Source: Apostichopus japonicus
Taxonomy: Eukaryota; Echinodermata; Holothuroidea; Aspidochirotida; Stichopodidae
Assembly: GCF_037975245.1 (NCBI RefSeq)
Contig: NC_092567.1
Coordinates: 12,414,876 to 12,478,875 of the forward strand
Length of the DNA: 64,000 bases
Direction of reading: 5' to 3'
Part shown: in pieces, positions 4,101-62,207 of the stretch
Position numbering within the stretch: position 1 is the first letter of the stretch
Layout of the letters: each line of letters starts with the position of its first letter
Program-made: the position numbers and the translations under genes
Notes under the pieces: model-generated
What the model was told of the DNA's origin: nothing
Seen by the model: only the letters and a program-made list of their open reading frames with translations
Databases searched by the model: none

Positions 4101-4129
4101 ACCTGGAGATCAAGGATTGCGGCTCCGAT
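4101..4129 (+). CDS. Possible 29-nt exon upstream of the series
   Basis: Preceded by a pyrimidine-rich acceptor (atttttacag) and followed by gtaaat. Its 29 nt are open in the frame that leaves two bases (at), which join the first base of the next exon. It is too short to support alone; compatible phase is the only argument. Confidence 0.3.
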
Positions 4130-36117: not shown

Positions 36118-36208
36118 TGAATGGCTTATATCATCCTTTATGATGTGATTTTGTGGTTAGCAGTACAAGAGATATATTTCGTTTTCGTTAACAGCGCGGT
36201 TTATGGTA
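36118..36208 (+). repeat. Left part of the duplicated block, split by a transposon
   Basis: Matches 28925-29011 (gtgattttgtggt, gagatatat, gcgcggtttatg). It ends in the dinucleotide TA immediately before the transposon terminus CACTCTTAAAA; the match resumes after the element at 40157. Confidence 0.85.
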
Positions 36209-36471
36209 CACTCTTAAAACGACCTAGTCATTTTTCCGACCAGAAAGTCTAGTCAAAATAGTTTTGACTAGAAAAGGGTCGACTTGATTAGATATTCTCG
36301 TTACGGTCACTCTGATCTAGTTAATTTAACCAGTTTCGGATCATATCAGCTAACAAGTGACAAGGTACCCATAGTTACAGCTGAGTTTGCGCATTGCCTG
36401 TAGAATTCAGACGTTCGTCTTTGCATTCTTTTCGACGCGCAACCACCGCCCTAGACTACTTCTACACTAAG

Positions 36472-36550
36472 ATGGACGAAAACGAGGACGATTTTGTTTC
36501 AAAACCCATACGAAATGGGGGTTAACAAAAGAAAATCGACACATTTAAAG
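36472..36550 (+). pseudogene. Element 1 gene, candidate first exon (broken)
   Basis: ATG at 36472, then an acidic start (MDENEDDFVSK) corresponding to ADEFVSAV in element 2, and a good donor aaag|gtgagt at 36551. TAA at 36523-36525 interrupts the frame. The region after the stop still aligns loosely with the SAM-like segment of element 2 and ends in phase 1, matching the acceptor at 37933. Confidence 0.5.
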
Positions 36551-37932
36551 GTGAGTGCTACAATATGCTATAAAATGTGCTTAGTAAGTGCTTAGTATCC
36601 TGCAAAGGCAACATTCTGTGAACGTCCGTTCGTTCATGCAATGAGGATAGCCGGTATAACGTTGAAGTCATGTAGACTAGGCTTAACGTTACTAGGCAAT
36701 ATCAGTTCAAAGTTGTGTGCATTTTGTACCAGGTGTGTTTAGGCTACTGTCGTTTGGTTTACTAACGCACTAAGTGCCTACGCTGTCCGACTCGGCCTTA
36801 TACTGCTAGGCATAGTAAGTAGTAGGGTGCTCCAAAATTTCGTGAATTGAAGCCACGGATTTAATTGTAACCTCACGATTCTTTTACCTTATGCCATCGC
36901 AGTTCGCTCCTGGGATATATGGCTAATAAACTCACGATTTTGTATCAAATAACTCTTCTCTGTCAATCTGCGTCCACTAATACAGATGTCAGTAGTAGTA
37001 GCATGGTGGGCTCATAATTGACGCACTTAAGGATTTGATCAACGATGTCTATCAAGGAAAAATCCAAATCACTCAACTGTATGTGTTTTTTATATGTGTA
37101 GTACCTCAGAAATGTTATGATCTCAAAATATTTAAGGTTCTGTGCTTATGCACCGTACAATTGAGCAGAATTTGACCACAAAATGTCTGCCGTGTCAAGT
37201 TCTTTCATACCCCTAAATTGACACATTCGTCGATAAGCTAACTGTAGTGTAGGCCTTAGTATACATCCATTGACTTTAGATGCTGTTTGCTATGCTCTCA
37301 GCCTCTAAGCTCAGACAGGTTAGGTCCCAGAGAGTCGTGTTATCATATTAAGGTAATGTTGGTTATTTTTAGGATGTAAGATTTCCAAATGCCAAAAAAA
37401 CGTGCAAATCTGGGAGGGGGGGTGTTAAAAGCTTAAAAAATACCACAATTTGGTTAGCAAATAACTGAAATGGATTCAAACTCATGAAATGTGTAATTCT
37501 GCTTGACTGCAAAAAGTTTAGGTGGCCTGCCGTATCGTTGCTAGTAATAATTGAAGGTGCGTCAATTACGGGGGTGCGTCAATTATGAAGCCTTGACTAT
37601 ACTAGTACTAGGCTTAGTAGTACTGAGTTCTGAGTAGGCCTAGTACTACTACTAGTAAGCGCTTTGAAACGCTGTATTAAACGCGATATAAGTGTAATTT
37701 ATTATTATTATTAAGAATATAATTACTGCTGTTTTTGAAACAGTACAGAAGCTAGGTGTGTCAGTGCAATGTGACAGTGCTTCATGCACTGCACTATCTA
37801 TAGACACCCTATGTGTATGCCCGTGCTTTGAATTAACACTGCAATTTGAGTTAGTTTAAACAGTTGATAACATTTAACGTTGCATGTTTGAAGCTAACTA
37901 ACTTTGTATGTACTTTGTTTTGCAAATTCCAG
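36551..37932 (+). other. Element 1 intron
   Basis: No exon corresponding to element 2's 58533-58690 was found here; it is either lost or too diverged. The interval carries a LINE/SINE-like tail at 37658-37715. Confidence 0.5.
37658..37715 (+). mobile_element. LINE/SINE-like 3' tail with (ATT)n
   Basis: The segment agcgctttgaaacgctgta then acgcgatataagtgta then attattattatt resembles the common animal retroposon tail with GCGCTTTGA and GCGCTATATAA motifs ending in ATT repeats (recalled pattern, not searched). It sits in the intron of the element 1 gene, so it would be a later insertion; no 5' part is seen. Confidence 0.4.
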
Positions 37933-38072
37933 ACAAGAAGAAGCTTTCAGTGGCATTGCAAGTACTTCCACTTCTGTTTTCTGCGAAAACTTAGTGTGAT
38001 GTAGTCGGAAAGAAGAAGATGCTGAAAGCAACTTTAGCAGAGGCAATGCAGTATTTTGTGCAATGTGTACAG
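37933..38072 (+). pseudogene. Element 1 gene, middle exon (broken)
   Basis: Acceptor caaattccag, donor cag|gtaact. Two bases, then 46 codons in phase 0, with TAG at 37992-37994. The start (DKKKLSVALQVLPLLF) aligns with DEKKNLAFFLLPLRF in element 2, and the end (KATLAEAMQYFVQ) aligns with TTVTSCLQAFIDDHP. The alignment across two independent elements shows this is a genuine exon despite the stop. Confidence 0.7.
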
Positions 38073-38733
38073 GTAACTACATTAAACCACTTATCCCATT
38101 TTCTTAGAACTGGAACAAATAGTACATGTACTTGTGCGTTGAAAGATGTACTAGGGGTGACAGTAACCAATCAGAAGTACACTTCGAAGTTAAGGGAAGA
38201 AAATTTTGATGTGTGATTTGTGTGAATGTGTGTGTCCAAAACTACTCCCAAACTGAAACTTGGTCTGGAGATGCTCTATGATGGACTTTGTGTTAAGATA
38301 GATTTCCATGGATATTGTATTAAGAAGGAAAGGTTTTCATGAACTTGCAAAGTCCACAGGTATTTGGACCATCAATTTGGACCATCTGAATAAAAATTAT
38401 AGTTGTGACTGAAAGTCAAAAGGTTGAAAGTCAAATTGTCAAAACATGTTTTCTTGCTATAATTAAAAAAGATTTTTTTATTAAATACAAGTTTCAGTTG
38501 GTTTAGATTTGAAAATACTTCAAGCATACCTGAGATGAAAAAAGTGTGACTTGAAGTATCTACAGTATATAGGATATCTATTAATGGACTTACATTTCAG
38601 TTTCAAAAGTCAGTATATGAATTTAAAAATGGGATCAGATTTTCTTGCCTTCACCCTTTGCTTTGCATGTGAGAAAAATTCACAACTATCACTGCATATC
38701 TTGTTTATTGTTTTCACTATTTCATCACTGCAG
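38073..38733 (+). other. Element 1 intron
   Basis: AT-rich. The reading frame of the next exon happens to stay open upstream to 38551, but the strong acceptor tcatcactgcag at 38733 and the protein alignment place the exon start at 38734. Confidence 0.6.
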
Positions 38734-39072
38734 ATTGGAACCAACTTGCCAGAGTTCCTGGCTAAGGTTAGCCAAACGCAACCATTTATTCTAATCATTG
38801 GAGAGAACAGAAGGAACCCAGAACAACAGTTTGTGATAGTCGAAAGGATGGCAATACCAGCTAGTTCTCTTATCAAGGCAGTTGATCTATGTTTCAAAGT
38901 GTTTTATGTACTGGACCTTAACTACCCTTGGGAGCCTAATAACGTGTGGGATTTAATTCAAAAGAACATTTACGGGCTGGGCGAGGGGAAGGGGAGGCTA
39001 AGGTCAACACCAAGTGTCTTGGCCCTGAAGAATTTTGTATCATGCAGTGCAGAAACTTCAAATGAGATGTAA
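38734..39072 (+). CDS. Element 1 gene, C-terminal exon (intact): conserved module of the transposon protein
   Basis: 112 codons and TAA with no break. The key stretch is QPFILIIGENRRNPEQQFVI, then VERMAIPASSLIKAVDLCFK, then VFYVLDLNYPWEPNNVWDLI and IYGLG. Element 2 encodes the same pattern (QPFILCLGES, FFVIIER, SSLLTAVD, YVLDIN, VWEF, VYELG). I recall very similar C-terminal modules in numerous uncharacterised fish and invertebrate proteins that also start with a SAM-like domain, but I cannot search. The biochemical role is unknown. No metal-binding or DDE-type catalytic set is evident; the conserved residues are mainly Phe, Val, Asp and Leu, more like a structural or binding fold. Confidence 0.8.
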   Translation: MGTNLPEFLAKVSQTQPFILIIGENRRNPEQQFVIVERMAIPASSLIKAVDLCFKVFYVLDLNYPWEPNNVWDLIQKNIYGLGEGKGRLRSTPSVLALKNFVSCSAETSNEM

Positions 39073-40156
39073 AAAGAGTGTGCTTACGATCCATGTTTAT
39101 AGTATTGACTGAAAGCATTAATGTTGGAATGCTTACCTTATATTATTTGGGCCAGCATGAAATTTGTATGACTGAGTTTGCTCCAAATATATTTTTTTAT
39201 AAAGACTTTACAAAACCAAAATATAATTCTAATAGTGGAGCTGGTTAAGCCCTTTTTCTTTTCTTTTAATGATACCCAAGACCAAATACTTTACAGGCCA
39301 TCATACTTCAGAAACTCCACTTGGTTTTGACGAGCTTGGAATCGCCTAATATTTTAGAGGTTCATGTGATTTGTGCAATAATTTTAACTTAGTTATATAT
39401 GTTTGAAATAATATTAAGAAATGTTATATTAATGGAACAGTATTTCAAAATTGACCAACTGACCAAGAATCTTAATAAATTTTAAATGGTTTAGAAAATA
39501 TTGATTTCTGACTTGAAATGTTAAATTTGTTGTATGTGTACATAACCCATCATGTCGTAGCATTTTTGTGCCCCCCCCCCCTACCAGGACCGTTTGATAT
39601 GCAGCAGGCCATTAAACCTTGAGAGAAAAACCAAAAACATATAGTAACTATCACATTAAATGTAATGATAGTGTCTTTGCACGATGTATATATCTTACCA
39701 TAGATGACTGGAATCATGCGCCAACTGAAAATTGATCCACAAAATGTGCTTGTACGTTTTATGAACTTCATTCAACATTAATTCTGGATACAGTATAGTA
39801 TTTCATTTTAAATTCCAATAGCATTCAGAACGTCTGCAATGGTGGGTCTTGCTTTCCTTATATATAAATTCACCCGATTTTATATGTCTGCCCCTGACTA
39901 TTTTTTAGAATCAAATGAAAAACCACTGGCCTCGAAGGCCTATTTAAGAAGGCAATGATCTAGTCAATTTTGACTAGTATGTAGTCAAAATGATGAGATG
40001 TTTCTGGTCAATTTAGAACAAGGTTTTCTAGTCACTTAAAATGACCAGATGTCTCTAGTCAAAATGACGAGGATCTCATAAAGTCATATTTTACATGGTA
40101 ATCTGGTCAAATTTGACTAGATTCTAGTTAAAAATGACTAGGTATTTTTAAGAGTG

Positions 40157-40455
40157 TATAGCTGACATATTGTGGCAATTCATCATAAGCAAGCGATAGC
40201 ATCAGATTGATACAAGATTCTATGATGGGGTAATGATTATTCATAGTTTCAGGTGTTTCATTAGTCAACATTTTGATAACTATCATTAAATTAATAAACA
40301 AATAAAACAGAACACATCAAAGAGGGGGTGGCTGGAAATCTGGACACACTAGCATATATATGACGTCATGATCTATTGTTGGAGCGTAAGATATGCATCA
40401 TCGCATACATCATGACAAGACTGGACTGGAGGGGGAGGGGTGTGAGGTTGGCGTG
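40157..40455 (+). repeat. Right part of the duplicated block after the transposon
   Basis: Resumes the match to 29013-29297: attgtggcaattcat, cagattgatacaa, ggggtaatgatt, atgacgtcatgatctattgt, gacaagactggactggaggg. It stops matching at gaggttggcg, exactly where the 51-bp minisatellite begins in the other copy. It carries a TGACGTCA at 40361 equivalent to that at 29216. Confidence 0.87.
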
Positions 40456-40964
40456 GATAAATTACATTTTTTAGGTTGTACTGAGGTTACATGTTGTTCA
40501 ATATCTTACCATGAACATTGCCTTGCCAAAGTCAAATATAAATGAAGCATTTTTGACATCTATTTTGCCGGAAGTCATTGTTTTCAAACATGAATATATT
40601 ACGGTAAACAACAGTCGATCCACTCCAAGAGTGAGGCAAGAACGGGATATGTATGTAAGGATAATGTATCCGGAACGATAGTAAAACCTAATCATGTTTG
40701 GTTAGTGTACGGATGAAAATAATTCAACATTTAACGACACTTTAAGTAGAATGTTTGTGTGTAACTTTGTAATTTTCATCTGCCCCGACCAAGCCATGTA
40801 ATGTTAACTCCAGTTATAATATTAACAATAGATCTAACCATGTGAATATGGCCGTACAACTGCCGATAAGAAAATAAACTGATTGGACCAATAATACACG
40901 ATAAAATACATTTAGGTTATGTAAAATACAAATTGGGTGCAATATTTTACTTCTTCATTACAAG
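40456..40964. other. No gene seen
   Basis: AT-rich; a minus-strand frame at 40498-40695 has no recognisable features. Confidence 0.4.
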
Positions 40965-41142
40965 CTTCTATCTGCATACATATTTACATCACTTGAAGAA
41001 CTTATCTAAAGCAAACGTTACTTTCCACATCTGTGATGACAAGAAACATTTCTCCCCTTTGGTAAACTTTAAAGCAGCCGTAGTTTCGGCTCATCAAGAA
41101 TGTTACCAAAACCTTCAGACTTTACTCAAAATGAGATTGTAA
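40965..41142 (+). CDS. Candidate terminal exon, product unknown
   Basis: Acceptor ttcttcattacaag, one base, then 58 codons to TAA, followed by AATAAA within about 15 bases. The peptide (KANVTFHICDDKKHFSPLVN near the middle, CYQNLQTLLKMRL at the end) looks natural: one N-glycosylation site, two cysteines, and an amphipathic helix at the end. The one-base lead phase is the same as in the candidate terminal exons at 21563 and 32204. The frame also runs upstream to a non-ATG start, so its 5' boundary is uncertain. No family is recognised. Confidence 0.35.
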
Positions 41143-44100
41143 TTAATCAAATAAAGGCATATTGTTTTAAGTCGGTTAATGAGAGTATTTAATATAGTAC
41201 ATACAGCTTACACACTGTGGTCACCCAGATAAGCTGTTATCTAGATCTAGATCTAGAACATCTAACTCTAATTTACTGTTTGTTTGAATTACGCCTTACA
41301 ATGTTAACGAACAATTTTGCTACGGTATTTCTGAAGCAAATAACAGATTCATCAAAATCATCCGAAATATTTGCTTTAAATATACAAAGAATAATCTACT
41401 TAGCCTAAAACAAAATAGTCCAATGTTTCAGACTAGCATCTAATGTAAAAAAATACACTGAAGAAAATGTTGCAATCTATGTGAAACCATTTCTCTGTAC
41501 TAGTTTTAACAATATCAGCATTAATCGCCGCACAGTTCTCATTTCTCTTTGAATAAATCGTACTAGCGCCCTCTAAAATTAAAAAAAGTTTGCATCACCC
41601 AGCTGGAGATGAACACAACTATCTTCTGATTATAACCAAGTTACCGTAAGATGAAGACTGTGAAGTACGGTCAGGATAATCAGAGTGAGGTTGTAGGATT
41701 ATTTTGATCATCCATGTTTATTTGAGATTAGAAGGGCCGCCCTGACGTAAGTTAGTTGTTGATGTTCACAAGAATGAATATTCAAAAAAACATCACGATA
41801 AACATATATTAAAAATCAAGAGAAACAAAGGTGGAATCAGAGTAATGTACAGCTTACTACCGTAAAAGCTATTTCAATTCCTCGGAGGTTGGGGCGGGGA
41901 GTTTTGAGAGATTAAAACCAATTTGATTTCGTTAAACGTTGTGAATACAGTATACATTTACAGGCTAATCTTATCTATAGCTAAACCATTCGTTAGAACG
42001 ATATGTTTATGATGGGAGTTAAAGGCCAAACTTGTTTTTATGTACAGAACTTGAACAGGGTGGCTATCGAAATATTGCTCGTTATGGACATTTGGCATAT
42101 ATGGATACAAACAATTAATTAGTCCATAATCTAGCATTTTGAACGATAAGCCTGCATTGTTGGTCGAAAAACCTTGATTAACAATGATAAACTCCGATTA
42201 TTAACCAGACAAGCGGTCCAATGTTTAAAATGTTGATAATCCAGTTTTCTTGCCTATAAGCTTTCATTTTCAGTTGTAAAACCTGAAGTACCGGTTCAAG
42301 ACAAGACCGGCATTGAGCAATGATCCAATTATTCCGACATAATAAAACTGGAATATATCATTAGTGGGTAATTTGCTTTGCCATACATGTGATTCAGGAA
42401 TAATTTCGACATGCGAGTAAACATCCGATATTAGCATAACAATACGAGTAAAATCCGATTCTGAATGAGAACAAAACCGAAGGTGGCTTTAGCTTCGTGT
42501 AACATTCCAGGGACATATGTTCTGTTATTGATACAGTATTGTATTAAGATAGCTCGAATAGGCTCGTTGCTTGTGCATACAATCCAACATAAGCAATTGA
42601 ACGTACGGGGACTGCTGGTGATAGTTTAATCATTTGGTAATAATATTTACTTCAAAGGCATCTATTAAAGACACTGCAACCTTCTCATCGTGCCGTACGT
42701 TCATGGAAATGTTTGTGCAAATTATTTTCGTTGGATCAATATCCCAGGATTTTACCTTGTGAATATTTCGCAATGATTTCGTATTCCAAACTGCTGTACC
42801 ATAATTCAGGATCAACAGTTTTCAGAGACCTGCATCTTTTCGTGGGCTGAGAAAATGATTCCTTATGGAGGAAGATTAATTTTTCGAGAGGATCACTTTA
42901 GTTTTATACCGGGATACACTTTAAACTATAGCATAACGATAATTCTTATCAGGTGGTGAAGTTTGTACGCAATTTTGCCTATCTGACATCCCGAAAGTGT
43001 TGGAGATTTAACAGATGTTGGAAGACAAAGTATTGTCACGTTTATCACTCGTCATCTCATGTGAATACACATTCCAATGAAAATCTTTGCTAATATTAAT
43101 AAAATGGAATAAACGGCACACGAACAACAATTTACTTCTCAAATTTAAAGACCTATGTTATCGTCACATCAACAACCAGAAACACAACCCATTATTAAAT
43201 ACAAAATTGAACTTGGCCAGCCTGAATTTTCTTAAAAAATGAAGCAACTTATAATGACATTTGTTATAAGAAAGTTTAATAAATCAAATACCAGAATACG
43301 TAACCCCTGATGTAAACAATAACATGGCAGCTGTTTGAAGTTACTGTCAAAATAGGTCTGCAGTAGCTGTTAACTTTAAAAAGGATAGAGGATAAATTTC
43401 AATCGCCTTTCCTGATATATCGATCGGAGAGGAACAAACATGCCGCTGATACCGGTCAAAAAGTAAAATAGCGGCTTAACAATTAACAGGCTAAATTGTT
43501 ATGCTGCTAAAATAATGTTTTAACCATCCTCCGATGGTCAAGCACCACCTCAGCTTACCCCAATCCCCCCCCCCCCCCACCAAAACAAAGGTAGGTGCAT
43601 TGTGTGAGACAATAGTCCTTCACTTTCTTGATAGAGACGGAATTATTAAGTGCAGTCATTGTCTATCATTTGTGTTGAATACACAGAAACCAGAAAAATA
43701 CACCCATACCTGTGACTGATTCATTTGTGTAATTAAAGTAAATTAGTCATTATTTCCACACAAAAAAATGGTTTCTTGGAAACTAAATCAGAGCCAACCA
43801 AACCTAACTTGTTATTACAAACGATTCAAACTTTGTATCAAAGAAACCATGTCACGCTAATGCAATTAATCGCCGTTCAATGTTTTGCGTAATTCAAGGG
43901 CGTTAAGTAACTACCGTCAATAGTTTGGTCTAAATAATCTCTTCACTAATGGTATTAGCAAACTTTGTGCATGAAGATATAATGTCCAGGCTAGCACAAT
44001 TATTTTAGAGTTGATTTTACTTGATATATTTTAATTGATATGTTTAAAGCACCACTGTAGTTTATACCTACCTTTATTTTCCTTTTTCTCTTCAAATTTC

Positions 44101-47100
44101 TTGACCAACCTTCATAATTCCTTTAATTATCAGAATTGATTATGCCACCATTAAATATAAAATGCTGTCATGGTTAAAATATAGATCCCTCAGTTTGCAT
44201 TCAATAGTACCATTACAAAATAATTTATGATTTTGTTAATCCATTAACAGGGATCAAATAGCAACCATTAACGCATTCGCGAATTTAAGGACATTCCCTA
44301 CTTCTTTGCTCATACTGCTTCTTAAGAATTTGATATATTATTGATGTAATATGATCAAACCATCGATAATATGACGTTGTTGAAGTATCAGACTTATTTG
44401 CAAATCAGTATCAGAGAGATCCATATCAACATTGTCCCTATCAGCGTTATCTATAAACAGAACATACAGATCTAAAAGTCGCTGAGTTACCGTATCCCAG
44501 TATAGACATACATAAGCTTGTAACCACTGAATTTAGTTGAGAGTGGTAAATGACGAACGTCTTTTCCATTTTCATGATGACAAAAGTTAAAACGATTACT
44601 TCCTTTTAAGTTTAATTAATTTAAATTTACCTGTAAATTATGATATTATGATTGCTAGATATTAAACTCATGGTGTATCAAGCAAATGTAAGTTTCACAT
44701 CGTTGTAAATCCACGGAAAGTTCGTTCGAAGTCTTCTCGCTGTCTTCTCGTAACTCAATAAAATGACGGCTATTGCGAGCTCATCACCTCGACTCAAAGG
44801 AGGTGCAGCGCTTTAGGGTTGCGAACGTGACTGCTGGTAGAAGAGGATTGTATAGCTATCAATATTATTAGTTTGACGTCATATTAGCCGCAAACTTAAT
44901 AATGTTTGCTTCCGAATTATTTATTCCTGGATGAAGTTCGTACGTATTTTGTTTATTTTTGGGTATTTCTTGATAAATCGCGACACTCTAGAAGGGTCGT
45001 CAAACCACTGTCCCGTTGCCCTCCTCCTTATGTAAGTACACTCGTTAACTAAATTACTTTAAAAACAGTAAGTAATTAACTACAGGCTTCATACTTGAAA
45101 GAAATTGTTATTTTTTGAACTTTTCATTCTCATCCCAAATAGCGTAGGATTAATTGTGGACTGGTACATGGTATTGTCTAATAGACCTATATTGGTTGTA
45201 AGTAAAGTTTAACGACACTATTACTACTGTTACTACTAAAAGATAAAGCTATTTTCTCGGGTGTTTATTACAGCCAACACTGTGCAAAACAAAGTTCCTA
45301 AATACTCCGTAGATGTAAAAGCTAATTATATGTGTTATTGATGGTTTCATGATAAACACTAACGGAATAACGTAGGCGCATTTGCCACAAACATTGTCAA
45401 AGAAACGTAATATGATTCCATCCGCTGATGCGTGCGTAGTTTTGCAATGAAGCTATGTTGGATTTTATTATATTAACATAGTCTTGTATACGTAAAATAT
45501 CATTCAATTAACAGATTAGTGTTTTTGAACAGAGGAGGTGATTGACGCATTACAGTGACCCCCCCCCCCCACCCCCTCCTCCATCCTGTTTTATATAGAC
45601 ATGTTGTACAGTTGTTGATGTTATTTTAAAGCTTCGATGATATGCGACCACATTATATTGACAAAACTAATGTAACGTAATCATACAGTAAGACACTTGA
45701 CCGTAGTATCACAATGGACGCAACAATTCACATTATTTATTAAATATTGTTATTGAAAGCATTGTAAACATTCGATGTATATTTTTTTAATTTACGGAGA
45801 TTTAGACAGAAATTGTTAAATACACGTTATCAGGAACGATTCTACCTAAATGTAGCAGTTTGTGTTGAATTTATCACAATCAGTTAATTGGTAAATTTGC
45901 AGCTCATTTACAATTACAACAACGTATACAGTACCTGCATATCCTAATATATATATATATATATGATACTGCGATCATACTAAATGTTTTTGATAGGTTA
46001 TCTACCACTCAGGGGCTATTTTCTAATTTATTGGTCGCTGTTTAGCCGGAAATTTCAACAACTGTTCCAAAATGAATATAATTTTATAAAATAATTATAC
46101 CTTTCCTGGAAATCGTCTTAAATTATTTTAAGAATGTTAGGATTGTGGTACTTAAGAAGTGGAAATTTCGAAATAACAGGTCGATCTTTTCACTTTTAAT
46201 ATCAAATTGATTTAATCTCAAACTTTCAATATTATATTTCAAACTTTCGCCTATTTTCTCTAACTTTCGACTTTAAGATGGCAAGGTTAAAAAAAATATT
46301 TCTACTTAACATATTGGTGTTTGGTATTAGATAATACAGGGGTAAAGAAAGATCCACATGGATAAACTGTTGAAATTTCGACTTAGCTTGTCGAAAAATT
46401 AACCGATAATGAAATATGTAAGAAAAAGTTTTATGCATTGATATAGTGTCTTGAAGTAATTAATCTACTCGATTTAGGCCCCACATAGTATGGATGTTCT
46501 TATGCATATCCCTGGTACGAAAATGGCATTTGTGAGCAACATATTTAACAGGGCGGGCACAATGATTTACTGTGAGAGCAATTGCCTACCCAGTTAGTAT
46601 GTTATTTACTTCACTGGTGTCAGGTTCTGACCAAGTCATGTATATTACACATTATAGTATACACCTCGGTCTACCTAAGAGATCTGTGTGAACACAATCA
46701 TATGTCCGCTACGAGCTATAATCTTGTCATGCTTTATTCTCTGTTTTGAAAAACATAAATGGTCTTGTCTAATTTATTAATTCCTGATGTACTTTTCGTG
46801 ACATGTTAGATTTATTTTGCTCTAACGGAGGAGGATGGTACGCCCGATTGAAAAATATTGATAGGCGTGGGATGCAGGGGGTGGGGGGGGGGGTTGGTTT
46901 CATTTATAAATTATTTGATCAATCTATACCGCAAATTTTCTTGAGGATTTCAGAACGTAGTATAAGACCCTACTGTACCATAAACTGCAATTGTTAAGAA
47001 TAGATACAAGAAGAGTGAATGTAAATTGCTATTTCATTTGAAATAGTGTTTCTTACATACTAGACAGTACCGATGTACTTAATAAAACGTTTACATATAT

Positions 47101-50868: not shown

Positions 50869-52628
50869 CAGGCGCGTATCCAGGGGGCGTTGGGGGCGCG
50901 CGCCCCCGGGTAAGAAAAATAGGAAAGAAAAAAAGAGAAGAAAAAAAGAGGGGAAAAAAGAGGAGGAGGAGAGGAAGGAAGGGAAAAGAAAAAGAAGAAA
51001 GAGAGAAAAAGGAGAAAAGGAGGGAGTAAAAGAAAAACGACAAGACACCGGGAAGAGAAAGAGGAACAGGGACATCATTACAGCGCTGATCCCTATTATA
51101 TACACAGGGTAGCCAGTGACGGATCAAGGATTTCGGAAGGGGCGTGTGCCTCACCCTACCCCTTACACCGACAACTCCATTTTTGACGTTTCCATTTTTC
51201 CTCTCTCACTCATGATCTATATATATACTATATATGGTCTATCATAACGCGTGTGTGTGTATATACGCCTTAAACAATTGTAGAAATGTGCTATGAAACC
51301 AACTGTGGCTGGTCTCGAACTCGACCGTGTCGACCGGGAACATGACGCATTTCGTGAAGGGGCGACCGCCCCCCCCCCCCCCTTATGCATATTTTTTGTT
51401 ATGATATTGCTCGTAATTTCAAAATAGAAAGTGCTTAGATGCAACTTACAAGGCCTGGAAAGTGTAATTTCCAGCGATCTGGGAGGCATTTTCGGCCAAA
51501 ATTTGCTTGTACGCTTCGCGCCAACTTATGGTGGCGCTACGCTTAGATAATTTGCCTACAGGCTTCGCCCCTCCCTTGGCAAATTCCTCACTACGCGCCT
51601 GTTCGAATTTGTAAAGCAAACAGCAGATATCACATTATATCAAAATGGCGTTCCAGGATGAACAGCTTCAAAACTGTCCGACTTGCCCTAAAAAAATAAC
51701 CAAAAAATTTCGCGAGCCCCGCGCGCGTTCAATAAGCTACTGTCAATATCATATATGCAAACATCGGTTATTACATCGCATGCCATCGTATACCGTGCGG
51801 TCCGTCAAAGTTGCGCAGTATACCGCGGGATGCTAATGTAAACAACGAAATGTCTTATGTAGATAGAGTAAAAGCATTGAGGTCCAATTATGTCAAAACT
51901 CTCTTTAACATTAGTAATGGCGAATTACAGGTTTCAGCCCCCCCCCCCCCGCGCCTCCTACGCCTATGTGTGTAGTGTTCGGTTTCGGAAATATCTGCTA
52001 TTTTTTCATTTCCTTCAACCAAGTTTTATAATAGCCGTTTTAAGAAGTTTTCATATTTGTACACCAATAAATTAACTGTGTCTGAATTTTCGAAAATATC
52101 TGACCAACATTCTTCATCACACTTCCTTCTACTCGTGCAATTTTTACCGGACTGTTAGGGGTTGAAGGAGGTTTTTCTATATTGGTTGTCCATAGATGAA
52201 ATTTTGTGCAACATTATGGGTATGTTTTGAAGTGAGTTTATTCACGAGAATGTGAATTTTCAAATTCTGAACAAATAATGGGCTTAGAACCTTCAAAAGT
52301 GGGGCTGACGGATATTGTGGGCCGCGACGTAGAATCACCTACAAAAGCAATGATCCACAGGACATGCGATGGGTCGAGCATGATGTGTGACTGGTGACAA
52401 TCTTCAAAAGGGTTATGGATGGAAAAAAACTATTGGGAAATACTTGGTTCTCAGGCAAAAAGTGTACATCTGGTTGGTCATTTACAAGCCCGAGAAGTGC
52501 CATTTCCGGTGATCTGGGTGGTATCAAAACCAGAAATTTTATTGTACGCTACGCGCCAACCGATGGTGGCGCTCCGATTAGATAGTAATTCGCGTCCCCC
52601 GGGTTAGAAAATCCTGGATACGCCCCTG
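50869..52628 (+). mobile_element. Nested MITE-like cluster with inverted ends
   Basis: The left border caggcgcgtatccaggggg and the right border tcctggatacgcccctg are inverted copies of a CAGG(G/C)GCGTATCCAGG terminus, a form I associate with hAT-like non-autonomous elements. The interior is purine-rich near 50910-51070 and otherwise non-coding. A second element (51114-51601) is nested inside. Both carry the same core near 51470-51535 and 52500-52585 (cgatctgg..gg, ttgtacgct.cgcgccaac, atggtggcgct). A target-site duplication is unclear because the flanks are G-rich. Confidence 0.55.
51114..51601 (+). mobile_element. Inner MITE-like element
   Basis: Begins cagtgacggatcaaggattt and ends cctcactacgcgcctg, which reads CAGGCGCGTAGTGAGG on the minus strand. 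The ends are only loosely inverted. The shared core with the outer element suggests related families. No open frame. Confidence 0.4.
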
Positions 52629-55397
52629 GGGGGGGGGTATTTAGAACTGAACTGTTTTTGCATCACAACACAGTTCTTAAATGTCCATACTGCTCATGTG
52701 TGATGCACCCTGTACACAACTGTTACGTGCATTGTGCTATGTTATCGATAAATGCCTTCACAGAAAACTTCGATCAAACATGGATATAGTTGATCATACA
52801 ATCTAACAAACTAGTGTGCTAAATATGTCTAAACCAATTCCAAAGATATCTACACATACTTACGAAAATATTCGGGTGATTTTGAACGGTTAAACCTTCG
52901 TTGCAATGAACTGATTCAGACATTTTGCTTACCGCGAAGTACCAGGTTTCTATGGTGATGACAAAACTTCCGACCAATCATGAGCGACTATTTACACACA
53001 ATTGCAAACCTGTCTGGGACAACAAAAAAACTCGACCTTGGTACGTTCCCATCCAGTTTTGTGGAAACTGGTTAAGAAAAGGCCTGAACCTTTCCATTTT
53101 TGTAATGTCGTTTTGTTGTTAAATTTTGAAATATGTCATTTGAAAGTGCCTCTTTTGTATAATTCCCACCCCCTCCCCCTTCGCAATCCCTTCCAAAAAA
53201 TAGATTATCGTAAATGAATGATGTTTGTATTTGGGAATACATGGTAAAATGACACACTATTTTAAGAAATTCATGCATTCACTTAAAAAGAAGAGGATAC
53301 GATATAAAGGAAACGGACACATCTATTGCAAACATATTTATTCTTGCACGAGAAATGATATATAAGAGATGTATTAGGGTATGAATGTATCTATTTGAGT
53401 TCCTCGTTAAAATGGTTTCGTTTGTTACATCACGATTGTAAGTCCATGATCCCGTCCGGATCGAATTACGATGGAGGTTGTTATATTAAAATATCGACTT
53501 CTGAAATCAACTGCTGCTGTTACTATGGTAACATTGGACGTGGTTTATAACCAGGAGCATACTGTTTTCATGACAGTTCGGTGGAATGGGTGTTGTGTGG
53601 ATTGGAAGTAGATCTTGGTGGGAACATTTGTGTGAAGGTGAGGTAAAATGTCATCATTGTCGGGGTTTGAATACATAAATAAAGACACAAAAAAATCGTA
53701 TATTATAGTACACTTTCGTATCACGAACGATACGTGAAAGAAGAGGCCTATGAAATTCTTGATTTGTTTTGTTCGATTTGCAATTTGGTCAACATTCCAG
53801 GACCATGTTGAAGTTATCAGCTGATTACATCTGTTATGTTAAGTTAGAATAGTATGAGGCCTTAGAGAGGTACTTCAAAGCGGTCTCATATAACGCCTCA
53901 TACTCTTCTTTTTTGACCAAACTGAGTAGACGGAATCTGGTTGATTGGTTAAAAAACGATGAAGTATTGTAAAGCAGTAAGTGATCATCAAATGACGTTT
54001 AAAAGTGGTAAGGCGCAGAGCATGACAATAACATCAATAAACAAACCAAATGTACGATTTTAACCCGTTTCTTCAGGTTGTAAGTTGAAATCGGTCACGT
54101 GATATATCCTCTGTACATTGAATGAGGAATTATCCCTGACTAACAATCATAGTCAGTTATCAGCGTGACAACTTCTTTTATCATTTTCATCAGAAGATGT
54201 CAGCATGACGTAAAAATACACGACCGTTTGCAATCTTCGTTGAAGGGTTGCTTAATAAATAACGTACTGTACATACAACACTGTTCATGTTGGATTTATT
54301 ACAAGATCATCAAGTAGATCTCAAACATGTCACACAGTCCTGTATTGTACCAAAAATAAAACAAGAAACATTTTCAAGGCGAATATTGACCACATTTATG
54401 ACATATGCCCATGAGCAAGAATTAACATGTTTCAATGAAACAATTAACCGGTTAACCGTCAACATTTAACCGGTTCGGTCTTATTTTACCTCGTAGTTGA
54501 AGACTACGTAGATTGAAAACAGTTAAGGGGCTAAGATAATAATAAAAAAAGTTATTGTGATCCGGAACAAGGTAGAAAACAAAAAAAATTTCTATATTAC
54601 GGAGTTCTATTTTTTCTGTCTCTGTTCAGACTCGTAAAACCGTATATTGTGCACGCGTCTTCTGTGTTTGGATATTTGAGGTCGACGAAATTTCAAACTG
54701 CCGTTAACTTATGATGAATCTAGAAGATTGTGTCAGTTGTAACGAAATTTTAATTGCATTTCATTATTCATAATGTAATCGTGGAGCAAACTCTGGCAAT
54801 TCGGAATTAATAGCGTGACCATTCAGCAAGCAAAAGGTCTAGCGCCCTCGAAAACGAAAGTTTTCGACAGCCTCTTGGAAAGGAGTTGGTTGAATCTGAA
54901 ATGGACGAGCGCCTCTCCCCCCTTCAATTTAGTCGAACTTTCATAATTTTTATTTGGAAGTACCGTAGCTTAGTGATCTATTCAAACCACTCACGATCTG
55001 TTGTTTTTTCCTTGATTATAATATATTAAAAAGCGTTAAATTATCATTCATTATTACTAAATGATCAGTTCAACGTAGCAGTTTGCGAATAAGATGATCC
55101 TAATAATAAAATAAAATAAAATATGTTCAATCAATTGCTGTTCAGTTTTGTCTTGGTTTGTCTAATAAATCCGATTGAAACACAAGATATTTTACTTTAA
55201 AATTACATTAATCAGTTCCTCATTAGTAAGTACGACTTAAAGAAGTTTTACCGTATCTGTGTTTTTCAATTTCGGGAGAGACTTGGTGTTTCCAAGGTAA
55301 TTTTTGTTTGTGTCTGTAGTTGAAATTTGTGCTAAGCACTAGTAGCCTAAAAATAAAAAAAACTAGTAAAATATTGTCAAGAAGCTATTTTCTAGTG

Positions 55398-56110
55398 ATG
55401 TGGTACTCGAAAAGCATGCACCCGGCACTCGAGTGGCATTCAAACATATGTTTCCAAATGTTCGGTACTCGCACTAGGTTAACAGTACTTGGTACTCATC
55501 CTTTCGCATCCGCACTCTAATGCCTAAGTACTCGATTCAAAGTGCTTGGTACTCGTTCGTGACGAGTAATGTAAAACAAACAGTTTCGTAATACTGACGT
55601 TACAGTAGGTAGTTATTATAAGTTATCGATGATTTTTATTACTCTGTAATGTCACCGTACTCATGTGTCTCTACTGCAGCAGAATAGCCGACTATATTAC
55701 CAAGTACAGTACATATAGCATAAACAAAGAAAGCATAAGTGATGTATATATGTTTCTAACATAAAACAATTTATAGCATGTTTGTAGTATTAACATGGCA
55801 CTTGTACCCCTATTAACCCATCATTTTGAGACATTTTCATTTGAAAATATGCCAAACAATAAAAAGACACGAACAATGTCTTCATATTCGACTGGTATAT
55901 ATCATTTACTTATAATCACCACCGGGAACAGTTATACATATAAGATTGTTCTATATTTCAAAAACCAAAATAGTATAATTCGTACTCGGTACTCGGCTTC
56001 TAAATTATTGTACTCGGAAATTGGTACTCGGTGCTCGGATCCTAAAAAGTAGTCATCGGACTATGATACCTGGTACTCGGAACTTCTTGTTTCCGAAGTA
56101 CTTGGTACCA
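55398..56110. repeat. Repeat with GTACTCGG-rich ends
   Basis: Two clusters of (g)gtactcg(g) words, 55398-55565 (about six copies) and 55980-56110 (about eight copies), bracket an AT-rich centre of about 400 bases. The layout, with motif clusters at both ends of a short non-coding middle, suggests a non-autonomous transposon with subterminal repeats. Exact termini and target duplication were not resolved. Confidence 0.5.
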
Positions 56111-56179
56111 GGATACATTTACCTGGCTACAACACTGTTGCTACTCTTTCAGTATTGTTTGATATCATTTTATTTGGTC

Positions 56180-56600
56180 AAATCTTCAACAACCAGAACA
56201 ATTCACTTCTTATAAGCCTATAGACTACTTTCACATCAAACAACAAAGTACAACCCACCATTAATTAACTTGGACTGGCCCATGATTTTTCTTCAATAAA
56301 CATAACTTGCATCATATAAACCATTATTATAAAAAATGACTTATAAATTATACTGGTGTAAACAGTTAAATAGTAGCTGTTTGAAATCCCTCAGATCATG
56401 GAAAATAGGAATTACGTGCAGCTGCTGATTGAATATTAATGAATGAATATTAATAATCATGCTAAATTTCAAATGTTTGTTTTGTCAACATCTTCAGCGA
56501 ACATAGGAGAAATCTTCATATCTTTACCACGAAACAAACAAAAAATGCCATAACATTTCCTGAAATATCGATCGGACTGGAGAAGAAACAAGCAAATCTT
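56180..56600 (+). repeat. Diverged duplicated block, partner of 43130-43470
   Basis: See 43130-43470 for the shared landmarks. It lies about 0.7 kb left of element 2. Confidence 0.6.
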
Positions 56601-57567
56601 AAAAAAAAGGCTAACAGTGGGACTGACTAAATTTTTCTTCTCATTGAAATTATGTATTCAAATTCTTCAAATTCAATTTTGGGTGATCAATCAATTTACC
56701 CATCAAAATAAATAATAATAATAATACTAAAAATAGTTTGTAGCCAGGGTCATTTTTTAGAAGTCACAAGTAGGAGTGGGGGGGGGGTAGGGGTGGGGGT
56801 TGGATCAATTTAACGAAAGCTGCCTTCAGACACGTTATAATATACAATTATCTCATGAAGTTCAACGTGACTGTCAAATCTTCAGCCCCCTTGCCCACAT
56901 TTGGAAAATGCAGACTGACAAATTTACAATAAATGGCCAACGTTTCCAGACAAGAGAGTGGAAATTTGAAAATAAGATGTCAAATTGTCGATTTATTGCT
57001 ATCCTTTCGACTTGATATATGACAAGCGTAAGCAAAAATATTAGCAGAATATAAAATTGGCAAGGAGATTTGTGTTGCTAAGGAACAACCAGTCCTGTCG
57101 TCTGCTGTTCGTGTCTATGTACATTTGTGTACAGTCTTGACTAGCTGCGTGAGTTCCAGCTGCAGTTCGATTGTTTGACAAAGTACTCACAATGAAAATG
57201 TTTTACTTAAAAATTGCGGTAAACAACGAGAAATGTACCACTTAGATTCCATTGTTCAGGTATAGCTTCAAAAGGAACGTGCACTCTAAAAACTGTTGGG
57301 CAAAACTGGTTGGGCAAACAAAGCATTGCCCAATATGAGTAAATATTAACCAACAACTGAGTAAAAGAAATTACACAACTGATATGGGTAAACTTTGTTG
57401 TGCAAAAATTAAGATGTAGTTTATTGTTACTTTCTGTTGGGCAAACAAGCTTGATTTGCCCAATGTTGTGCAAAAACCAGCATTTTTGCGCCATTACTAT
57501 ACTGGTACTCTGCGCGATGTGCATGCATCATGAGTAGATCGTGAAACGTGTTATAACTTACACAAGG

Positions 57568-57634
57568 GCTGACGAATTTGTTAGCGCAGTACTCAAGAGG
57601 TGGGAAATGCCAGAGTTATGTGCTACATTTGAAG
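57568..57634 (+). pseudogene. Element 2 gene, SAM-like first exon
   Basis: The frame reads ADEFVSAVLKRWEMPELCAT then FE, with donor gaag|gtgagc. VLKRW..PELC..FE looks like helix 1-2 of a SAM domain, a protein-interaction fold, and matches DDFVSK in element 1. No ATG lies in frame upstream before a TAG at 57535; the only in-frame ATG is inside the motif at 57607, so the original start may be lost. Confidence 0.6.
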
Positions 57635-58532
57635 GTGAGCGTAAAGAAAAACAATCCTCTGCTTGGTGTGTGCATCGAGCACTGCGATCTCTATATATCA
57701 GTGGTATCGAATGATCGTTCGTTCTCTCGGTGCTACATGTAGGCTATACCAGGCATACGTAAAGGCTACTAATACTAATTGTATTTCCAGCATAGTTGTA
57801 TTACGTTAGGCTAGCTTGTAGTGAAGCGATTGACAGGCGCCACAGGCGCGCCCGCAAGTGTGTAACTAGGCCTAAGTTACTCACATTGTATTAACGTTGC
57901 GAACGCCTGTGTAATGCAGATCCTTGTCAACTTACGGTAAGCTATGCGTATGCACCAGGTCTCTCTAGCCTATATCTTGGCTAGACAAGATTTCATTGTA
58001 GCACATTTTCGTTGTAAATCATAAATTGTACTCCTTTTTTTTCTTTTAAGTTTTATACGGCAAATGACCACATGAATATTAGCTTAACGTTAGACCTAGC
58101 CTGTCATAACTTAGACCTAATGTTAGACTTACACGTACGTTGTTAATGCTAGTAGTAGTAGTACGTACATACAGTAGTATAATAATGGACCCTTCGAAGT
58201 TCGAACACTTTAGCACTAAAATGCTCCAGAATTGTATCTGTTCACACTTCTTTTAAATGATACTATCGATGGCAGAAGAAACATTCTCGTTATAAAAAAA
58301 GTCGCTTCATAGGTTTCGTCAAATTGATCCTATTGTATTTGTGCCATGGTGAAATTATGCATTCGTTAGGGGTGTCCGAACTTCGAGGGTTTTTCAAACT
58401 TCAAAGTAGCCTAAGTTAGGCCTGGCATTTAATGAGTTCTAGGCTATAATAATATTAGTATAGCATAGAACATCAGCGCTAGTAATGTTATAAGCCTATA
58501 ATGCTGTTTGCATATTTTTCTCTTTCCTACAG
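57635..58532 (+). other. Element 2 intron
   Basis: No exon recognised, though the phase mismatch between the first and second exons suggests one or more exons could have been lost or missed here. Confidence 0.45.
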
Positions 58533-58690
58533 GTAGAACAGGACTTCGAATTATTACAAAAACCAACTGCTAACAAATTATACAACAGAGTGGAATATTT
58601 GACAATGGACATTTTGTGCTATACAGGCGATCATCCCAAACTGGCCGAACTTTTTGCATTTAGAGAAGACGTTGGATGCACTGACTGATG
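58533..58690 (+). pseudogene. Element 2 gene, second exon (frameshifted)
   Basis: Acceptor tctttcctacag, donor gatg|gtaagc. The first half reads VEQDFELLQKPTANKLYNRV in one frame; the last part reads WPNFLHLEKTLDALTD in another, ending in the phase required by the next exon. An indel therefore separates the halves. The EQDF.LL and (N)W.. segments agree with my memory of the middle region of the same uncharacterised protein family, which should be checked. Confidence 0.6.
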
Positions 58691-59774
58691 GTAAGCCTAA
58701 TTTATTGTATAGTCATGGCCTGTGAATTCATAGCTAGCTTCATTCAGAGCTTATGCCATGACAATATAGTTTCTCTTTCCAGTATATCTGTAAAGATGGG
58801 TCAATATTTGGATTAACCTTCAAAATATGTTTTTGGTGGTTTGTTACTTTTTAAAAATCTATCAAAATCAACTGATCTGAATGGACCAAATCAGGTTAAT
58901 GTCAATGGTGGCTTCTGAACCTTTCTCCAAACTTTCTCCAAACATTGCACTCAATATGATTAATTGGCTACTATTTTATTTGTAGTCGCGTTCGGGTTTG
59001 TGTGTGGTTGAAGTGAGACCCAGCCCTGTTATAATATTAACTCAATGACAGTCACTTGGACATGTATCAGTGTTGTTTGAAGGTTCCACATAGGGTTTGA
59101 ATAATTCCTGTTGATTTCTCAACAAGTGAAATGTTTTTTTGTCAGCAGGAGTAATGACTGAAAACCTCATTATTAGCCTTGTTTACTCACTTATGCTCAA
59201 TTGAATATAATATTTGGATTAATTCTACTGTCGATAAGCACAAACTTGAAAATGGCCAATGAGATGGATTCCTTATGTGTATACTTTTCCAATGCTGAGG
59301 AAAAGAAATTAGCTTGTTGTGTTGTGTACTCTTCTCAAGATGTTTTATGAGCAGGAAGATTAACATGTTAAAACGTCTAGAAGTTGATTTTTCCAAAAAT
59401 CTTTGGACAATTGTATTCAGATTTCAGTACAACAGTGTCAATGAAAGGTTAGCACATACTATGAGCTTTTTCATTTTTTTCCTTCAAAATCTTATAAAAT
59501 TTGGCTTGAAATTAGTGTGTAGGGTAGGTAATTAAGTCTTCTGATACAAATATGTAGGTCCCCTATGAGTACACATGCCACATTAACTTTCATGTTGCTG
59601 TTATTAATGTGTATGAGCATAAAGTTGTGGAGCACATTTAGGGCGGTGTAGATCCCTTGAATTTTATCCTCAGTCCTTGAAGTTTCATATGGTCAGACTA
59701 TAGTGTGCCTTATTAATGTTTTTGTCATTTATACCTGCAAGCATTCTCATTTCTTGCCTTAATCTCTTTTACAG
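58691..59774 (+). other. Element 2 intron
   Basis: AT-rich; overlapping short frames at 59187-59396 (minus) and 59314-59535 are not supported. Confidence 0.5.
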
Positions 59775-59890
59775 ATGAAAAGAAGAACTTAGCTTTCTTT
59801 CTGTTGCCATTGCGTTTTCGAGGACGGGCAAAGAAAAGCGGATCTACTACGGTGACTAGTTGCCTTCAAGCATTCATAGACGATCATCCA
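59775..59890 (+). pseudogene. Element 2 gene, third exon (open)
   Basis: Acceptor tcttttacag, donor cca|gtaagc, and no stop in 38 codons. It encodes EKKNLAFFLLPLRFRGRAKK then SGSTTVTSCLQAFIDDHP. The basic stretch RFRGRAKK is a plausible nuclear-localisation or DNA-contact segment. It aligns with 37933-38072 of element 1 at both ends. Confidence 0.7.
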
Positions 59891-60544
59891 GTAAGCAAAA
59901 TCATTAATTATATATTTTTTTTTGGGTATTCTTTTGGTGGTACACCATTTGGTTCATACCAGCTCAGCTGAAAGTTTGTTTAACCTCATAAACTTGGTGT
60001 GTTGTTGTTTGTAGTGAGCAGAAGAATGCTACTTATTGTGCTAGTGGTCAAAGGTCATTTGAGGTTAACAAGGGCCAAACACTTAAAACCTTGTAAATAT
60101 GCTAACTTAAAGAGTGAAAGTTAGATGAATCTCATATGTGATGCATATAGGTTTGCCAACATGAGTACATGAATCCCATTGATTATAGTAGAGGTCAGAG
60201 GTCATTAGAAGCCACCAGGGCAATTTTTTTTTAATTACACTAGTGATGAAATGGGGGATGGTTCAATAACTTTCATCGTCGGTATGTAAAACCTGGTCAT
60301 AATAATGAAGTGATCCGGTACTTGATAGTGCAAGGGAAAGGTCATTTGACATTAATGGGGTGGGCGTTACACTTTGAAAACCTTGTCAAGATAACTATGT
60401 TGACTTTCCTGACCTGTTTTTTCTTTTAATTATACTGGTCCACAGTATCATAGCATTGTGCAGAAGTCTTAAAACTCTGTCTATCCACCTGTTTTTGTTA
60501 CATTTTATTTGCAACTCGAGGAGTTTATTTTCTTTAATTTGCAG
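59891..60544 (+). other. Element 2 intron
   Basis: Loosely repetitive: ggtcatttga, ggtcagaggtcatt and similar words recur at about 60050, 60192 and 60348 with ~150-base spacing, suggesting an old internal tandem repeat. No exon. Confidence 0.5.
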
Positions 60545-60917
60545 TCGGTGACAAGTGTTAGAGGACTACTGCAAGACAATATCGAAGGATGAGCGACCAC
60601 AGCCATTCATTCTGTGCTTAGGAGAGAGCAAAGGTTCCCCTCAGCATTTTTTTGTGATAATTGAGAGACATCCAATAATGCAGTCCTCACTCCTAACGGC
60701 AGTAGACTATTTGTTTTAAAGTCATTATGTGTTGGACATTAACTTCCAAACTCAATGTAAGGGGGTTTGGGAGTTTTTCCATGCTAAGGTATATGAACTT
60801 GGTTTTATCAAAAGTCGTTCACTGAGTGCCTTTGGAGCTTTCGTAGCAAACAGAAGTGTTGAAGGGTCAAAGTGTCTTGCAACAAACTTTTCAAATGGTT
60901 TCTCGGTATTAACCTGA
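60545..60917 (+). pseudogene. Element 2 gene, C-terminal exon (frameshift and stop)
   Basis: Acceptor ttaatttgcag. The entry frame hits TGA at 60590-60592, while the family sequence continues in the next frame from 60585, so an indel lies near 60585. The continuing frame has QPFILCLGESKGSP, then FFVIIERHPIMQSSLLTAVD, then TAA at 60717-60719, then YVLDINF and VWEFFHAKVYELG, and stops at TGA 60915-60917. It mirrors the intact exon at 38734-39072. Two breaks in one exon show this copy cannot make the full protein. Confidence 0.75.
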
Positions 60918-61920
60918 CATGTTTACGTTTTAAGGTTGCTTTAGTTTCATATATATTTACATATTAAAGGGAAATAGTAACTGTTTGCCTTGGCAAACTG
61001 TACCTACAAAAAATCTGTATTTTTTTTGGGGGGGGGGGGGTGGGGGTAGATTTGTTATTGTATACAGTTGTGAAAGGTTGAGGCAGGGTTGGTATATCAA
61101 ACAAACATTTAATTTTGTGTGTTTAACAGATCAGGTGCCAGCAGTGTCCCTATGATCACTTATAATTGTGATCTTGAAACTGCTTTTATTTCTAGTATGT
61201 AGAATCAATGTGGGATGTGTAACCATTTGGCTTTTGTTTGAAAAGATGTTTAAATTTTACAGTTCATCAATCATCTAAGCACAATCAAAATGTTAGCAAA
61301 ATATGCCTTGGCTCCTTGTTAAAGCAATTGCAGATACAATGGTGTATCAATTTTTTTCGGTTTGTGTGTCCTTGTTTAAAACATAAAATGGTTAGCTTCA
61401 ATTGACTATATGTTAGAAATTATCAGTGATATTACATTCACTTATTAAAACCAGAGTTGCTTGAAAGAGACCAACATTAAGCTGTACATGATTGTGTGTT
61501 GCACCTGTACCTTGTGTAGTTGATGTCAACATACAGGAGGTCTTCTGTGGTCAACACATTTCAAGAACTGAATATAGTAAACAATGGCAAAATATGGATA
61601 GCTAATATTTTTAGCTTTAATATTGTTGATATGTGTTTATCCCCATTGTGAGTTTATGAAATTATTGCTTTGGATGGAAGTCACAGATCATTTAACTAGG
61701 TAAATAAAAGTCAAGCACTGAATGCTGTGAGAATTCATACTGGAGGAACAATCTGAAGTCGGCTAAGACCAGAAAAAATAAAAGTATGAAAAACATGTAT
61801 TACTTGTTTGTTCTTTATCATTCTCTGTTTAAGCTTTATAACCTATTAAATATACCCAGTTGTATGAAAAATGTTACAATCCAATGTTGGTATTGTATTA
61901 GTTAACCAACCACTATTATT
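60918..61920 (+). other. Element 2, 3' untranslated and spacer sequence
   Basis: No coding signal; a G13 run at 61028-61040. AATAAA-like signals occur near 61704 and 61776. Confidence 0.5.
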
Positions 61921-62207
61921 TTTAACTAGCTGTTGGGCAAGAATCATTGGGTAAAGAAAAATCCATTGGTAAAAGGTTTTAAACAACCATTGGGCAAATC
62001 GCTGACCAACATTGTTGGGTAAAGGCGTTGGGCAAAGGTGTTGGGCAAAGGTGTTGGGTATTTATTTAACCGTTTGCTGGGCAAAATCATTAACCAACTT
62101 AGTTGGGCACTTTTTTGCCCAATATCAACCAGGAGGCATACGGACCCAACGGTTGTGTAAATAATTGCCCAGGTTGGGCAATAATTTGCCCAACAATTTT
62201 AAGAGTG

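Follow-up and report, generated by a model that had tools for sequence, protein, structure and literature searches.

How can two transposon-like elements, each bounded by terminal inverted repeats (TIRs), carry the same intron-bearing gene and encode no recognizable transposase? The question is raised by a 64,000-nucleotide stretch of the genome of the sea cucumber Apostichopus japonicus (C7:12414876-12478875, hereafter the window), in which a sequence-only reading had described two such elements, here elements 1 and 2, and assigned them to an unfamiliar superfamily without a known transposase. We have searched the genome (671.6 Mb) for their relatives. The assignment is no longer tenable, because a CACTA/En-Spm transposase is encoded by sister elements that have TA flanks, ends of the same type, and exons in the same order. 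Very probably, elements 1 and 2 belong, in non-autonomous form, to an animal clade of CACTA transposons of the tnp2 (En/Spm) type and derive from full elements that encode two proteins.

Full-length relatives and their transposase

A search of the genome for the CACTA-family domain Transposase_21 identified 20 places, two of which, on two chromosomes, lie about 6 kb upstream of matches to the C-terminal module of the shared gene and on the same strand. The element A family is represented by two copies of 10,789 and 10,839 bp (TA flanks counted) that are 98.95% identical and located on different chromosomes; the homology opens at CACTCTAAAAAC, directly after a TA, and closes at TTTTTTAGAGTG, directly before one. 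Each copy holds an open transposase frame of 877 codons, from which a predicted start after exon 2 of the accompanying SAM-domain gene would give a protein of 830 amino acids. Taken together, the full elements measure 10.8-13.5 kb and have CACTCT(T/A)AAAA ends, TA flanks, and an intact tnp2-type transposase frame of 840-877 codons.

The transposases of the two full-length families are about 45% identical. That of element A also resembles an open reading frame (ORF) at a further place, L041 (blastp E 5e-12, 475 amino acids, 23% identity), which scores 53.6 bits against Transposase_21, above the cut-off of 28.6. All five of the transposase ORFs aligned have D347, D441, C461, C464, and D523-x-M-H, and the four that reach far enough also have FE. 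Going by the CACTA pattern, these positions would be the DDE catalytic residues. A zinc-finger-like N terminus is suggested by weak matches (Pfam E 0.09; YY1 in the PDB, E 0.03).

Other Transposase_21 ORFs in the genome also exceed the Pfam cut-off. Of the further places, L041, L042, and L043 were read, and they are 20-25% identical to the clade that carries the SAM gene.

The accessory SAM-domain gene

The second gene of the full elements was modeled from exons conserved across families. In element A it comprises 10 exons joined by nine introns, all of them GT-AG, and would encode a protein of 506 amino acids that is open in both copies. SAM_1 is recognized at the N terminus (24.9 bits against a cut-off of 23), and the last exon is the C-terminal module of the sequence-only reading; Pfam returned no other kind of domain above its cut-off and no plant TNPA-type family at E up to 1. 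A phmmer search with this protein yielded three matches, two of them weak ones to SAM domains (E 0.09 and 0.36) and the third of another kind (E 0.79). Uncharacterized “SAMD3-like” proteins of fish, with the order SAM, then AWYTPG..YLEERLRNVRKR, then a C-terminal YVFD module, presumably resemble it.

The transposase frame lies between accessory exons 2 and 3 in both full-length families, with exons 1-2 upstream and exons 3-10 downstream. In element A, exon 2 ends at 1577, the transposase frame ends at 4111, and exon 3 starts at 4169; the second family follows the same gene order in its elC21 copy, which measures 13,512 bp including the TA flanks. On these gene models the transposase ORF appears to sit within an intron of the multi-exon second gene.

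Genome-wide association of transposase and module

The module exon of element 1 (38734-39072) matches at least 150 places (150 of 712 candidates scored). The gene does belong to mobile elements, as the sequence-only reading proposed; the two elements are related, and their family is a large one here. Two sets of the best 150 rows each were merged into 192 module places. For the transposase, 54 of 421 candidates were scored, and the resulting 56 rows came down to 53 places once three pieces of elements already counted had been removed. At 25 of the 53, one of the listed modules follows downstream in the same orientation at a distance of 4.5-11.7 kb, and none of those listed lies upstream or on the opposite strand within 16 kb. 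Random placement, repeated 1000 times with contigs of unknown length set to 25 Mb, produced a mean of 0.17 pairs and a maximum of 2.

Most listed modules (167 of 192) have no listed transposase. A query of exons 4-6 had 76 candidates and returned 18 rows, whereas that of the module had 697 candidates and returned at least 150. The disparity is what one would predict were most copies of the module products of deletion; exons 4-6, being short and split, are also harder to detect.

Nine copies of another family (L014-L022) are at least 99.88% identical over loci of 3.3 kb on seven chromosomes, and six of the nine have a transposase match 5.0-11.7 kb upstream. This family has probably been active very recently.

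Anatomy of the window elements

The description of elements 1 and 2 as TIR elements with 2-bp flanking repeats proved accurate (Table 1). The arms of element 1 (36207-36235 and 40130-40158, 29 nucleotides with the flanking TA counted in) are 93% complementary, and those of element 2 (23 nucleotides) are 91% complementary; the flanks are TA/TA and TG/TG, respectively. The boundaries of element 1 are exact, in that three other copies read at both ends finish at identical bases, with surroundings that are unrelated beyond the preserved TA. Eleven of the 12 elements read at both ends have TA on either side, the other being element 2. The TIRs of all five families read (those of element 1, element 2, A, C, and G) share the first four bases CACT. 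The terminal 11-mer CACTCTTAAAA is hardly enriched genome-wide (402 forward and 392 reverse occurrences versus 333 and 367 for a control pattern) and by itself is no marker of the elements.

Inside the TIRs are short repeats specific to each family. The 350-bp ends of element 1 together contain 11 copies of TAGTCA/TGACTA, against 0.22 per 700 bp of interior; those of element 2 contain 15 copies of TGGGCA/TGCCCA, which is absent from its interior. In all five elements examined in this way, the top 6-mer is present in both orientations, at 11-17 in the two 350-bp ends versus 0-0.5 per 700 bp inside. Repbase EnSpm entries and unclassified TA/TWA repeats of zebrafish, with CACTCTAAAAA or CACTGTAAAAA ends and TGGGTT subterminal repeats, are presumably similar in termini and subterminal layout to element 2 and family G.

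Table 1. Features of elements 1 and 2, in window coordinates
Feature	Position	Strand	Remarks
Element 1	36209..40156	+	CACTA-type, non-autonomous, 3948 bp; no transposase detected
Element 1 left TIR	36209..36235	+	CACTCTTAAAACGACCTAGTCATTTTT; TA flank 36207-36208
Element 1 left subterminal repeat zone	36209..36558		6-mer count
Element 1 exon 9 counterpart (basic)	37933..38072	+	Broken by a stop
Element 1 last exon (exon 10, C-terminal module)	38734..39072	+	Open in element 1
Element 1 right subterminal repeat zone	39807..40156		6-mer count
Element 1 right TIR	40130..40156	-	TA flank 40157-40158
Element 2	57282..62207	+	CACTA-type, non-autonomous, 4926 bp
Element 2 left TIR	57282..57304	+	CACTCTAAAAACTGTTGGGCAAA; TG flank 57280-57281
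Element 2 left subterminal repeat zone	57282..57631		6-mer count
Element 2 SAM exon 1 remnant	57571..57634	+	Homologous start codon is GCT
Element 2 possible exon 8 counterpart	58533..58688	+	VEQDFELLQKPTANKLY...; by-eye match to element A exon 8, no significant search match
Element 2 exon 9 counterpart (basic)	59775..59890	+	Homology
Element 2 exon 10 counterpart (C-terminal module)	60545..60917	+	In-frame TAA at 60717-60719
Element 2 right subterminal repeat zone	61858..62207		6-mer count
Element 2 right TIR	62185..62207	-	TG flank 62208-62209

That the same C-terminal module is present in both elements was also confirmed (tblastx, 42.5% over 80 amino acids, E 1e-17). A tblastn search with the 877-residue transposase returned no match from either element at E up to 10. 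The gene is broken in both. The stop in exon 9 of element 1 recurs in a sister copy (C20:8151469-8155438), and the SAM-like exon of element 2 has GCT at the position of its relatives' ATG. Of the SAM-like N terminus and basic exon attributed to both elements, element 1 has the basic exon; tblastn detected no SAM exon in it. Pfam searches of five single window exons or pieces returned no family for any of the five, and a profile of the module found no match in the PDB.

A segment of about 205 bp in element 1 (37401-37605) is inverted relative to three other full copies (L010, L011, and L012). It adjoins a pair of inverted repeats (36991-37026 and 37574-37609) and about 400 bp that are unmatched in the same three copies.

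Origin and spread of the elements lacking a transposase

Family C, a young family, contains two different internal deletions. Its C12 copy (6.2 kb) corresponds to its C8 copy minus approximately 5.9 kb that include the transposase, with an identity of 99.6-99.8%, and the C15 copy has a different stretch deleted, the transposase again being gone. SAM exon 2 is missing from both copies, which retain exon 1 together with exons 8-10 and their right end; the left TIR was read in C12, and C15 was read short of the outermost 96 bases of its left end. The C8 copy is itself without exons 6-7, by comparison with C21. Family G, which has CACTGTAAAAA ends and a length of 3.67 kb, was read in two copies that are 99.7% identical over the element and both without a transposase. 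Elements 1 and 2 resemble the deleted copies of family C in that they show no trace of a transposase and retain the last exons, to which element 2 adds a remnant of SAM exon 1. The comparison makes it most likely that they lost the transposase through internal deletion, and we infer that they have been moved in trans by relatives.

The element 2 family has many copies. Its 3' 360 bp and 5' 361 bp were each found at 40 places, the window included (40 of 45 and 40 of 52 candidates scored, respectively). A 3' end could be paired with 33 of the 40 5' ends, the distance being 4.3-5.2 kb in 27 of the 33 and spanning 3.9-10.0 kb in the others; most of these paired copies were measured by the spacing of their ends rather than by reading of their letters.

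Two unusually long copies were considered as autonomous elements and rejected. A 12.6-kb member of the element 1 family on C14 owes its length to a minisatellite and a duplication, and a 10-kb member of the element 2 family on C1 holds a 5-kb insertion; tblastn found no transposase in either.

Three observations concern individual loci. In the element 1-family copy on C14 (C14:3422644-3436900, L031/L057/L058), part of the element is duplicated, and the minisatellite is long and has an uninterrupted translation into repeated IWPIYGKSISGP-like peptides. On C16, element 1-like 5' ends and modules are clustered within 2.5 Mb (24.88-27.33 Mb), which suggests local duplication rather than transposition. 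In the C8 copy of family C (L039, elC8), the transposase frame and exon 3 are separated by roughly 1 kb in which the reading frames are broken; an impression that these were piggyBac-like was dropped, as the piece searched matched no Pfam family.

Weighing the explanations

In essence, a full element with CACTCT(T/A)AAAA TIRs, inserting at TA and bearing family-specific subterminal repeats over its 10.8-13.5 kb, would encode a single-frame DDE transposase and a SAM-domain protein spliced from 10 flanking exons, the latter perhaps acting like TNPA on the subterminal repeats. The window elements would have lost the middle (exon 2, the transposase, and the upstream accessory exons) by internal deletion, the transposases of relatives would mobilize them in trans, and the C-terminal module would have been retained mostly through its nearness to the 3' end.

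Whether retention of the module also reflects selection bears directly on the alternatives. Compared with L010, L011, and L012, which have the same transposase-less layout, element 1 yields ratios of nonsynonymous to synonymous substitution rates (dN/dS) of 0.13, 0.22, and 0.24, with replacements making up 4 of 12 differences from L010 (P 0.001) and 8 of 17 from L012 (P 0.005), the pairs being non-independent. All five paired copies of the element 1 family, paired by eye, keep the module, that on C20 with frameshifts. This apparent constraint favors the earlier suggestion of a cargo kept for mobility, by which the transposase-less elements would actively keep the module as a helper that raises their mobility in cis. 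Other comparisons do not extend the pattern. The more decayed L013 gives a dN/dS of 0.44 with element 1; family G and its transposase-bearing relative L030 give 0.62, with 11 of 16 changes being replacements (P 0.27); and L030 and L038 give 0.33, with 6 of 11 (P 0.08). The element 2 family, moreover, has multiplied despite a TAA in 12 of its 13 listed modules, the same stop having been read directly in element 2 and in the C1 copy. A module near the 3' end is spared by internal deletions, and its retention is over-sampled because most elements were found through it. The evidence on retention is thus mixed; we favor passengers moved in trans and keep the helper role as an unlikely but serious alternative.

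Far less credible is the proposal of a new superfamily able to do without a DDE transposase, in which the module gene itself would supply the mobilizing protein. It can appeal to the module gene being the sole recognizable gene in the transposase-less copies read and to the few replacements between element 1 and L010; it has to contend with the DDE transposase encoded by sister elements whose ends are of the same type, with the 33 paired copies of a family whose listed modules nearly all contain a stop, and with the exon 9 stop common to element 1 and its sister insertion. The least probable reading, to which we give almost no weight, is that the transposase and the SAM gene belong to separate transposons, nested or adjacent by chance. 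Other insertions are indeed present in some copies, but whole 10.8-kb units with a single pair of TIRs are 99% identical on two chromosomes, the same order recurs in two families whose transposases have diverged to 45% identity, and the 25 same-strand downstream pairs contrast with no other arrangement within 16 kb among the listed modules.

The derivation from two-protein CACTA elements that we prefer has its own difficulties. No transposase-bearing member of the families of elements 1 and 2 themselves was among the copies read, and their origin by deletion is for this reason drawn from sister families. The sequence-only reading was to fall if an intact copy of either element contained a recognized transposase; one of CACTA/En-Spm type was found in sister families and none in the own-family copies read, which comes close to that outcome. 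The element A transposase scores 24.3 bits (E 2e-5) and that of the second family (C21) 14.5 bits against a Transposase_21 cut-off of 28.6, and the PDB yielded no relative of the transposase core, just zinc fingers at E 0.03 and worse. In elC21, acceptors of matching phase near nine of nine exon starts were counted with no chance control, the match to exon 3 is weak (E 0.14), and donors were found for exons 1-6 and 9, with none passing the filter for exons 7 and 8; production of the two proteins would presumably depend on alternative splicing. Among the 192 listed modules, none accompanies 28 of the 53 transposase places. In random pairs of interior windows (n = 200) from element 1 and elC8, some 6-mer was counted more often than the top 6-mer of the ends (14 and 26, respectively), and the TIRs have C or G at their fifth position, where CACTA has A.

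Comparison with known systems

In maize En/Spm, intron 1 of tnpA contains the tnpD ORF. Both proteins are needed, and TNPA is the one that binds the subterminal repeats (PMC2613891); deletion derivatives move in trans (PMC2613891; PMC1636069). The sea cucumber elements are alike in their subterminal repeats, in the predicted placement of the transposase ORF within an intron near the start of a second gene with many exons, and probably also in having deletion derivatives that are moved in trans. They differ in that the second gene has a SAM domain and no plant TNPA-type Pfam family, in TIRs that begin CACTCT or CACTGT, not CACTA, and in a TA flank where the soybean CACTA element has a 3-bp duplication (PMC2613891).

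Closer in host is SmTRC1 of Schistosoma, which with the animal TRC elements belongs to the CACTA superfamily and combines Transposase_21 with a 2-bp target duplication and alternative splicing; TRC-like sequences have been reported in S. purpuratus and D. rerio (PMC1636069). An animal host, Transposase_21, and a 2-bp duplication are shared with the present elements, whereas TRC TIRs begin CCC and the available text mentions no SAM accessory gene (PMC1636069). At the level of titles and abstracts, in mostly open literature, we found no description of a CACTA element with a SAM accessory layout. The shared transposase type, short duplication, subterminal repeats, and layout, set beside the differing ends, flanks, and SAM protein, argue for a variant of CACTA and not a new system.

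An apparent superfamily without a transposase thus becomes a testable animal counterpart of the two-protein system of En/Spm, for which near-identical copies and open transposase frames are available in one genome, and the SAM-domain genes, whose candidate copies here number in the hundreds, are better seen as transposon cargo than as expansion of a host gene. More tentatively, and in a proposal that could well prove wrong, animal CACTA transposons may carry a TNPA analogue of their own, a SAM protein acting on subterminal repeats that is unrelated in sequence to the plant proteins and partners an intron-encoded transposase. If so, many SAM-type “uncharacterized genes” in animal annotations would be transposon genes, and elements lacking a transposase could persist while carrying the accessory part alone. 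Should the SAM protein bind the family-specific repeats, several families within a single genome could be used to study how repeat and binder evolve together, a problem already posed for soybean CACTA (PMC2613891).

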